From: Luteipulveratus flavus
GTDB taxonomy: Bacteria > Actinomycetota > Actinomycetes > Actinomycetales > Dermatophilaceae
DNA length: 64,000 nucleotides
NCBI RefSeq assembly: GCF_029439465.1
Contig: NZ_JAROAV010000010.1
Span: 124,001 to 188,000, forward strand
Reading direction: 5' to 3'
Each line of letters starts with the position of its first letter. Position 1 is the first letter of the stretch. The notes beneath the pieces were generated by a model, which saw nothing but the letters and a program-made list of their open reading frames with translations, made no database searches and was not told the origin of the DNA. The position numbers and the translations under genes were made by a program. Positions 53,912 through 55,915 of the stretch are shown here, in pieces.

Positions 53912-54436
53912 GTGAGGCTTCCCCAGCTCCGACGCTCGAACGCTCTGCCCGAGGACGTGCGCGAGGCGCTCGAGCTCGATCGTGGCGAGCGGGTCGTCGC
54001 CTCCGCCACGGACGACAACACCGACGCGACGGTCGTCGCCACCACGACGCACCTGGTCGTCGTCGGGCCCGCCGGGCAGGTGACGACCCGGCGCCCGTGG
54101 CACCTGGTGGACGCCGGACAGTGGAACGCCGACACCTGGACGCTCTCGGTGACCTGGGTGGACAAGGCACGTCCGGGTCAGTGGACCTTCCGCGACCAGG
54201 ACACCCGGCTCCTGCAGGCCTTCCGTGAGCGCGTCGAGGCGACCGTCGTCGTCACCGAGCCGCTCGGACTGACCGGCGCGGGTCGTGCCGGCCGCGTCGT
54301 CCTGCGCAAGGACCTGAGCACCCAGCAGCTGCTCGTCCAGCCCGTTCTCGGGCGCGGTACGCGCGCCGACGACCCCGTCGTACGGGCGGCCGTGGAGCGC
54401 GCGACGGCGCGGCTGGAGGAGCAGGTCGGCCTCTGA
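53912..54436 (+). CDS. conserved hypothetical protein (PH-like?)
   Basis: 174 residues. It begins LPQLRRSNALPEDVREALELDRGERVVASA and then strand-rich blocks (VVATTTHLVVVGPAGQVTTRRPWHLVDAGQWN), a pattern seen in actinobacterial PH-like 'YdbT/bPH' type proteins following dnaG. No signal peptide or membrane helix. A 17-codon frame starting at ATG 53862 overlaps its GTG start by four bases and could be a small leader. Function is unknown. Confidence 0.65.
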   Translation: MRLPQLRRSNALPEDVREALELDRGERVVASATDDNTDATVVATTTHLVVVGPAGQVTTRRPWHLVDAGQWNADTWTLSVTWVDKARPGQWTFRDQDTRLLQAFRERVEATVVVTEPLGLTGAGRAGRVVLRKDLSTQQLLVQPVLGRGTRADDPVVRAAVERATARLEEQVGL

Positions 54437-54526: not shown

Positions 54527-54602
54527 TCCCCTGTAGCTCAACTGGCAGAGCATTCGGCTGTTAACCGGAGGGTTGTTGGTTCGAGTCCAACCGGGGGAGC
54601 CA
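54527..54602 (+). tRNA. tRNA-Asn (GTT)
   Basis: The cloverleaf folds fully: acceptor TCCCCTG/CGGGGGA with one G-U pair, D-arm from GCTC, anticodon loop CTGTTAA (anticodon GTT), and a T-arm with GGTTCGAGTCC. The discriminator is G and CCA is encoded at 54600-54602. A strong terminator follows within five bases. Confidence 0.96.
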
Positions 54603-54606
54603 GAGA

Positions 54607-54649
54607 AGAAGCCCCCTGACCAGGCAGACTGCCTGGTCAGGGGGCTTCT
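54607..54649. terminator. strong bidirectional rho-independent terminator
   Basis: A 20-base perfect stem (54607-54626 with 54630-54649) closes a three-base loop. On the plus strand it ends the tRNA-Asn transcript and is followed by a short T-run; on the minus strand it lies immediately after the fic stop codon. One hairpin serves both genes. Confidence 0.93.
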
Positions 54650-54650
54650 T

Positions 54651-55835
54651 TCATGGTGTCGACGGATTCGCACCAGAACCGCTCAGCTGGAGGATGTCCA
54701 GCACCGCGTCGGCCTGGTACAGATGGGCCCGTTTCAGCTTGCCGCCGGAGGGTGTGAGCACCCCCGCCTCGACGAGCGCGTTCACGCAGGTGTGGGCCGC
54801 CATCTTGGTCACACCCAGCTCGCGCTGCAGGTACGAGGTGGTGACGACCGGCTGCTGGATCAGGATGTCGACCGCTCGGTGAACCGAGGAGTCTGCGCGA
54901 AAGCGGGACACCGCCCCGGTCCAGTCGTCCCACACCCGGTCGACCCGTTCCGCGACGTCGTGCGTGATGGCGACCGAGACGTTCACGAAGTCGAGCATCG
55001 TCTCGGTGTAGCGCGAGACCGCAGCGCGGCGGTCCTCGATGCGGTCACCGTCGTGCCGGTACGTCGTGAGCGCATCGACGTAGGCGGACGTGTCCTTCGC
55101 GAGCGCCAGCGACAACGGGAGGACCCCGCCGGTGACGACGCCTGCTCGGTGCAGGACGCCGTGGAACAGCGCTCGCCCGACGCGGCCGTTCCCGTCGGTG
55201 TAGGGATGGATGGTCTCGAACTGAGCGTGCGCCAGCACCGCTGTCAGCAGGGGGTTGTCGCCCCCGCGATTCACATATGCCAAGAAGTCGTCCATGCAGC
55301 TCGGCACGGTCTGGAACGGTGGCGGGACGTACTGCGCGCTGAGTGCCGAGCGGCCGCCGATGAACACCTGTTCGTGGCGGTAGCCGCCGGCGGAGAGGCT
55401 CGGCAGCAGAGTGGCGTGGATCTGGTGGATGTCCTCGTGCTGCCAGATGCCGTCCAACCTAGCGATGGCAGCGCTCATCGCATCGATGTTGCGAGCGACG
55501 CTGCGCCCCTGCGGGGTCGCTCTGTCGTGATCCAGGCGGGCCAGCATGATGTTGCGCGGCGTCTCACGCTCACCCTCCACCCAGGACGAAGCGATGCTCT
55601 CCGAGCGGATCAGGGCGGCATACAGCAGCGGCAGCGGTCGCGCCCGGAGACGCTCACCCAGCACGGCCACTGCGCTCGAGGAGTCGTAGGCGTACTCGAG
55701 TGCGTCGGTGCTCAGCAGCTGCAGGCCGGAGACCAGCGGGTCAGGGTGGTAGCGCAGGTAGCTTCCACCGCGGCGCTCCCGGCTGCTCACGCCCGTGAAG
55801 TCCGGGTCGATCCTGACGCGTTCCCAGTGAGCCAT
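54651..55835 (-). CDS. Fic-family protein with N-terminal inhibitory helix and C-terminal winged helix
   Basis: 394 residues. The Fic core has HPYTDGNGRVGR (residues 210-221), matching HPFxxGNGRxxR with the catalytic His210. An inhibitory (S/T)xxxE(G/N) motif, SSWVEG, lies N-terminal at 83-88, so this is a self-inhibited class II Fic. A winged helix (about 320-375, with TTSYLQRELGVTKMAAHTCVNALVEAGVL) follows. Fic enzymes usually transfer AMP to target proteins. The gene lies between tRNA-Asn and the glutamate importer, and is AT-richer than its surroundings at its promoter, hinting at acquisition. Confidence 0.93.
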   Translation of the reverse strand: MAHWERVRIDPDFTGVSSRERRGGSYLRYHPDPLVSGLQLLSTDALEYAYDSSSAVAVLGERLRARPLPLLYAALIRSESIASSWVEGERETPRNIMLARLDHDRATPQGRSVARNIDAMSAAIARLDGIWQHEDIHQIHATLLPSLSAGGYRHEQVFIGGRSALSAQYVPPPFQTVPSCMDDFLAYVNRGGDNPLLTAVLAHAQFETIHPYTDGNGRVGRALFHGVLHRAGVVTGGVLPLSLALAKDTSAYVDALTTYRHDGDRIEDRRAAVSRYTETMLDFVNVSVAITHDVAERVDRVWDDWTGAVSRFRADSSVHRAVDILIQQPVVTTSYLQRELGVTKMAAHTCVNALVEAGVLTPSGGKLKRAHLYQADAVLDILQLSGSGANPSTP

Positions 55836-55861
55836 CGATGAAGCTCTTCTCGTCAGAATAA

Positions 55862-55879
55862 AGGCTAATGATCTAGCCT
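55862..55879. promoter_or_regulatory. palindrome in the fic promoter, possible self-operator
   Basis: AGGCTA, six spacer bases, then TAGCCT: exact arms located 27-44 bases before the fic ATG, immediately upstream of a possible -10 (TATTCT, 55860-55855 on the minus strand). The fic product has its own winged helix, so autoregulation is plausible but not shown. Confidence 0.4.
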
Positions 55880-55915
55880 ATACCCAGCACGGCGGCGAGG
55901 AGCTTCATCTCTCGG

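Follow-up and report, generated by a model that had tools for sequence, protein, structure and literature searches.

Organization of the fic locus

The window analyzed here, meaning the whole stretch of 64,000 nucleotides, derives from the 4.15 Mb genome of Luteipulveratus flavus (G000) and has a GC content of 0.718. It contains a tRNA-Asn (gtt) gene, identified with ARAGORN at 54527–54602 on the forward strand, and a convergent fic gene at 54651–55835 on the reverse strand, with its ATG at 55835 and its stop codon at 54651. The fic product comprises 394 amino acids in a Fic_N–Fic–winged helix order. fic stands as a single gene, separated by an 80 bp gap from the upstream ABC-transporter permease gene on the same strand. 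The distance to the tRNA is only 48 nt, which leaves no space for a downstream antitoxin gene. No consensus promoter was found at the fic locus.

A perfect 22 bp inverted repeat occupies 54606–54650 between the two genes, with its arms at 54606–54627 and 54629–54650 around a 1 nt center. Compared with shuffled sequences, it folds strongly on both strands (z = −8.0 and −7.8), and a hairpin of different sequence (z = −6.9) lies at the equivalent position in the sister species (G088). Since the fold is strong on both strands and a hairpin is retained there with another sequence, a shared terminator is a fair reading. The repeat is thus probably a two-way terminator common to tRNA-Asn and fic, as the first-pass annotation of this DNA had proposed. 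An imperfect inverted repeat (77%) was also observed at 55828–55849/55897–55918.

Domains, motifs, and predicted fold of the Fic protein

Membership of the Fic family was judged by a domain above the curated cut-off together with the HPFx[D/E]GN[G/K]R motif. The Pfam Fic domain (PF02661) was detected at 7.6e-18, with 65.6 bits over a cut-off of 24, and the motif reads HPYTDGNGRVGR, with Y in place of F. Its codons (residues 210–221) lie at 55173–55208 on the reverse strand, as located by translation and alignment, and 9 of its 12 residues are invariant in an alignment of 34 sequences (the fic protein and 33 relatives). The Fic_N match, at 26.4 bits, falls slightly below its cut-off of 26.7.

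Class II Fic proteins carry an inhibitory motif, (S/T)xxxE(G/N), in the N-terminal part of the same chain, and glutamate-mediated self-inhibition of AMP transfer is established for this class. The window protein contains this motif as S83-SWV-E87-G88, and the codons from S83 to G88 (SSWVEG) are located at 55572–55589 on the reverse strand. Ser83, Ser84, and Glu87 are invariant in the same 34 sequences, so that both the motif and the Glu87 numbering of the first-pass annotation are correct. The sequences TSAIEG and SARIEG, given in the papers on CbFic2 and CccR, agree with this form of the motif. Because the class II motif is present, Glu87 would be expected to block AMP transfer here as well.

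The AlphaFold2 model of the protein is confident (pLDDT 91.9, pTM 0.90). Its C-terminus consists of helices 317–327, 333–340, and 344–356, strands 361–363 and 372–374, and a final helix 376–387. The predicted fold of residues 317–387, encoded at 54675–54887 on the reverse strand, clearly follows the winged helix plan, in line with the annotated C-terminal winged helix. Pfam HTH-type models and FtsK_gamma match this region only below their cut-offs. The best sequence match of known structure is a Mycobacterium marinum Fic protein (PDB 7cb8; E = 5.9e-33, residues 68–383), which is also the best Foldseek match to the model (TM 0.82–0.83), although the two proteins share only 28–29% identity. No paper on the 7cb8 protein was present among the literature matches listed. 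SoFic of Shewanella oneidensis (PDB 3eqx, 3zcn, and 3zec) likewise combines a Fic domain with a C-terminal domain, with TM values of 0.70–0.76 by query length. The PADLOC SoFic model covers residues 28–383 at 4.2e-69 (model positions 8–359 of 361), placing the protein in the SoFic anti-phage group, whereas the NCBIfam SoFic equivalog NF046030 scores only 55.5 against a cut-off of 550.

A dyad upstream of fic is conserved in the sister species

A palindrome had been annotated in front of fic, and an 18 nt dyad, AGGCTA-N6-TAGCCT, is indeed present at 55862–55879, 27–44 bp upstream of the fic start. By itself, this dyad is unexceptional, with a generic palindrome score of 6.5: when the 75 bp preceding fic were shuffled 20,000 times, 343 of the shuffles contained some 6 + 6 dyad with a 6 nt gap. 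The weight given to it therefore derives from comparison with relatives. G088 carries an intact fic ortholog at the same site, encoding a protein 74–75% identical in an ORF of 382 amino acids. Its classification as a pseudogene was rejected, as the "1 TGA" in question is the gene's own stop and the ORF is intact. When GGTATAGGCTA-N6-TAGCCTTTA was compared between the window and G088, all 20 positions outside the spacer were identical and none of the 6 inside it were, while the surroundings have diverged. When both upstream regions were shuffled, none of 20,000 trials produced a half-site that they shared; the shuffles of the window and G088 upstream regions were mononucleotide shuffles that preserve single-base composition. 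At exact match, the genomes of G000 and G088 each contain a single copy of the dyad, at fic, and that of a third species, G089, contains none. With one exact dyad per genome, no wider regulon is indicated at the level of exact matches.

Alternatively, the dyad might belong to the ABC-transporter operon upstream on the same strand, as its intrinsic terminator or as an RNA hairpin. A pattern scan flags 55879–55862 on the reverse strand as terminator-like, and the dyad does sit downstream of the permease gene, ahead of fic. In G088, however, a VanY-type carboxypeptidase gene (L154 7263–8273), absent from this position in the window, lies between the permease gene and fic and adjoins fic on the opposite strand, facing away. 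No operon there runs toward the dyad, which is kept nonetheless and consequently cannot be a permease terminator in that species. The hairpin is also weak (z = −2.4 in the window and −1.3 in G088), and the covariation of the half-site with the winged helix described below would be unexpected for a terminator. From the gene order in G088 and the weak folding, we judge this explanation unlikely and regard the dyad as a candidate operator.

A second winged-helix Fic gene, whose product is 32% identical, is found in G000 on contig C24 at 1589–2778 (L002, L272). Its dyad, TCACTTA-N6-TAAGTGA, differs from that of fic and occurs once in the genome. Contigs C21 and C31 of the same genome hold three more Fic/Doc domain matches (L003, L004, and L005), which are too dissimilar to be found with the window protein.

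Palindromes are enriched upstream of related fic genes

The best palindrome between −120 and +20 was scored in relatives, with a threshold score of at least 9. Of 119 loci taken, 7 were dropped (3 with no hit and 4 in which no start codon was found), leaving 112 relatives. A score of at least 9 was reached in 49 of the 112, compared with 119 of 3337 flank windows (3.6%) and 22 of 2240 dinucleotide-preserving shuffles, although some of the counted palindromes may be terminators of neighboring genes, L008 being one such case. At a score of at least 11, the corresponding numbers from the same totals are 32, 37, and 1. The enrichment persists after identity reduction, with palindromes of at least 9 in 33 of 73 loci at 70% and 16 of 32 at 50%; this reduction omitted 5 of the 112, whose predicted proteins fall outside the range of 300 to 500 residues. 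Altogether, 63 of the 112 relatives have no palindrome that reaches a score of 9. Since the window dyad itself scores 6.5, below the threshold, the count may miss weaker operators, and the window site is not outstanding on its own.

Similar results were obtained in further sets. In a phylum set of proteins less than 70% identical to the first set, 11 of 23 loci bear a palindrome of at least 9; all 29 of its loci were analyzed, and the count was retaken on 23 of the 29 because L046 and L164 are the same protein. Among 80 loci on viral contigs, 17 were dropped (13 duplicates and 4 truncated or startless) and 63 analyzed, of which 47 have a long C-terminal part, 14 a short one, and 2 neither. Palindromes precede 22 of the 47 long-tailed genes versus 57 of 1483 flanks, and 2 of the 14 short-tailed genes versus 22 of 474, the latter being a small control; the viral set holds some pairs more than 90% identical. 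Reading the nearest clade by eye revealed an upstream dyad in all nine loci (L006–L009 and L156–L160), a count that includes the window's own locus and the near-identical L157 and L158. Among the palindrome-bearing records are ones labeled Actinomycetes, Cyanobacteria, Dormiibacterota, Eremiobacterota, and proteobacteria, several being metagenome bins. Relatives at E ≤ 1e-30 were also found in 9 plasmid records, all of these relatives being below 60% identity.

The half-sites of the relatives are diverse and include AAAGGATA, AAAGGCTA, TCACTTA, AACTTTA, and GGAAGTGAA, among others. An inner TA-N5/6-TA pattern is present in 15 of 33 fic palindromes but in only 1 of 81 flank palindromes, a comparison in which base composition is a partial confounder (mean GC 0.38 versus 0.65). 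Two separate palindromes precede one fic gene in L101, as if there were two operators.

The half-site covaries with the winged helix

If each dyad is recognized by the winged helix of the protein encoded behind it, the largest half-site differences are expected between proteins with the most divergent winged helices. This relationship was analyzed with Mantel correlations on 50 loci: those scoring at least 9, plus L006 and L007, which score below 9 and were added by hand, less L033, which was removed by an A+T filter. L008 was kept, although a terminator-like hairpin had been picked there instead of the dyad. Half-site distance correlates with winged helix distance at r = 0.37 (0 of 2000 permutations), whereas the Fic core reaches 0.21 and the N-terminal part 0.17. 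With these two parts controlled for, the winged helix retains a partial r of 0.32 (0 of 2000 permutations), whereas the Fic core given the winged helix adds nothing (0.02; 669 of 2000). In the 50-locus set, the half-site sequence therefore follows the winged helix and not the Fic core.

With the phylum set added, the partial correlation of the winged helix given the rest is 0.28, 0.31, and 0.35 at 90, 70, and 60% redundancy, respectively (each 0 of 1000). When redundancy is cut to 50%, 17 loci remain, for which the winged helix gives 0.28 (24 of 1000) and the recognition helix alone is non-significant (286 of 1000). The independent phylum set comprises 11 loci, in which all protein parts correlate alike: the whole winged helix is inseparable from the rest (partial r = 0.095; 251 of 1000), and the recognition helix alone is weakly separable (0.334; 17 of 1000).

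These correlations also bear on a further alternative, in which another regulator binds the dyad and the Fic winged helix either contacts the enzyme part or binds DNA without sequence preference. PMC10628234 describes nanomolar binding of random DNA by CbFic2, and PMC12249575 describes a C-terminal domain of EcSofic that matters for toxicity; both would fit such an arrangement. The restriction of the exact site to fic in two genomes and the covariation of half-sites with the winged helix across relatives, however, argue against it, and we consider it unlikely.

A proposed mechanism of autoregulation

The locus is best read as a SoFic-type class II Fic module that regulates its own expression. 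On the basis of sequence comparison, we put at about three in four the probability that it is a one-gene, self-regulated module in which a winged-helix dimer binds the dyad and represses its own gene. In this mechanism, the Fic domain would act as an AMP (nucleotidyl) transferase kept off by its own inhibitory helix through Glu87. The winged helix, as a dimer, would bind the dyad at 55862–55879 before its own gene, and the dyad-bound protein would repress fic transcription. The level of the enzyme, and possibly its state, would thereby be tied to the operator DNA. The first-pass annotation had proposed that fic may control its own expression and, separately, that it may be mobile. Of these two, autoregulation is the stronger half: the conservation of the dyad in G088, the enrichment of palindromes in relatives, and the covariation of half-site and winged helix all point to it.

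The arrangement has a precedent in CccR of Yersinia pseudotuberculosis (PDB 7xux), likewise a class II Fic protein with an HTH. According to PMC9755527, CccR represses its own gene by binding two 10 bp inverted repeats 26 bp apart. fic likewise has an inverted repeat before its own gene, but the half-site spacing of 6 in the window dyad is unlike the 26 bp of the CccR operator. The two proteins also differ in structure (TM 0.53–0.60), and CccR is a secreted effector. The authors of PMC9755527 consider Fic-HTH proteins to be widespread. In the literature examined, CccR is the only Fic-HTH protein with a mapped operator, and the best-ranked open-literature matches contain no account of a family-wide operator of Fic-HTH genes, subscription papers being mostly outside that scope. 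Self-repression by a Fic-HTH protein is thus already known, and what is new is the comparative evidence, which suggests that the arrangement is common. If the proposed mechanism is true, operators that covary with the winged helix across several phyla would make self-control of expression general in the group.

CbFic2 of Coxiella burnetii (PDB 8cil) also belongs to class II and carries a C-terminal HTH, but differs in having a DUF4172 N-terminal part and a host histone target, and the DNA used with it was random (PMC10628234). There, DNA binding is proposed to shift the enzyme from AMPylation to deAMPylation, and DNA binding by SoFic is stated, in 2023, as not yet shown. The dyads described here provide concrete DNA probes for whether DNA binding sets AMPylation. 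According to PMC12249575, EcSofic is an anti-phage toxin whose C-terminal domain is important for toxicity and whose gene is followed by an antitoxin gene, AS1, in contrast to the window fic with its 48 nt gap to the tRNA; the terms "palindrom" and "inverted repeat" are absent from the text of that paper. By analogy with this group, fic may contribute to phage defence. According to PMC11514479, SoFic genes of Streptococcus thermophilus stand alone and confer little resistance to the phages tested, which calls for caution on such a role. An improbable and speculative extension is that class II Fic proteins with a winged helix, among them the SoFic group, work as toxin switches made of one gene, with their own operator DNA as antitoxin. 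While bound to its coevolved dyad, the dimer would either be silent or catalyze deAMPylation; once the operator complex is lost, for example when a phage degrades or overruns host DNA, the enzyme would be freed and the gene derepressed.

The tRNA-Asn site in the family

Thirty family loci were found via the gene that precedes tRNA-Asn in the window. Several of these loci are short, and L142 shows no tRNA, so that the counts are lower bounds: fic lies beside tRNA-Asn in at least 2 of the 30 (G000 and G088), and an integrase in at least 2 (G089 and G033). Conservation of fic at this site across the family was thus not seen in these loci. Some relative of the fic protein at E ≤ 1e-20 is present in 65 of 186 family genomes, and outside G088 the best of these is 46% identical over its full length.

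Integrated elements are typically recognized by a signature of two parts, an integrase and a duplicated tRNA 3' end. Both are present in G089, where a tyrosine integrase (Pfam 1.8e-20) adjoins tRNA-Asn and the 3' end of the tRNA recurs 13 kb away (30 bases, 97%). The element so delimited (L155 3479–16640) also contains an IS481-type transposase and an ORF with a resolvase N-terminal domain. In G033, which belongs to a different genus of the family, an integrase 37% identical to that of G089 is located directly beside tRNA-Asn (L132 2250–3443). At fic, neither part of the signature was found; as previously annotated, the tRNA 3' end is present in a single copy in the window, and no second one was detected there or in 14 kb of G088 (L154).

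fic could nevertheless be cargo of an integrative element at tRNA-Asn whose integrase has since been lost. The integrases at the same tRNA in G089 and G033, and the presence of fic in only 2 of the 30 loci, are in its favor. The GC content of fic, 0.678 compared with 0.718 for the window, is not extreme, as 7.8% of windows of that size have an equal or lower value; two species carry fic at the same place, and the missing second 3' end in both also argues against this origin. We regard this origin as possible but doubtful. The integration idea is thus supported for the site, which elements use in relatives, but not for the arrival of fic by that route, given the single 3' end and the position shared with G088. 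fic has a limited distribution and occupies a site used by mobile elements. A general link between fic and tRNA genes was rejected: any tRNA was seen in only 10 of 116 loci, which are short and include the window's own and G088.

On the other side of the tRNA, the window encodes a 174-aa protein without a Pfam match at 53912–54436, adjoining dnaG. It is present in 177 of the 186 family genomes searched, with tRNA-Asn nearby in 29 of 30 loci.
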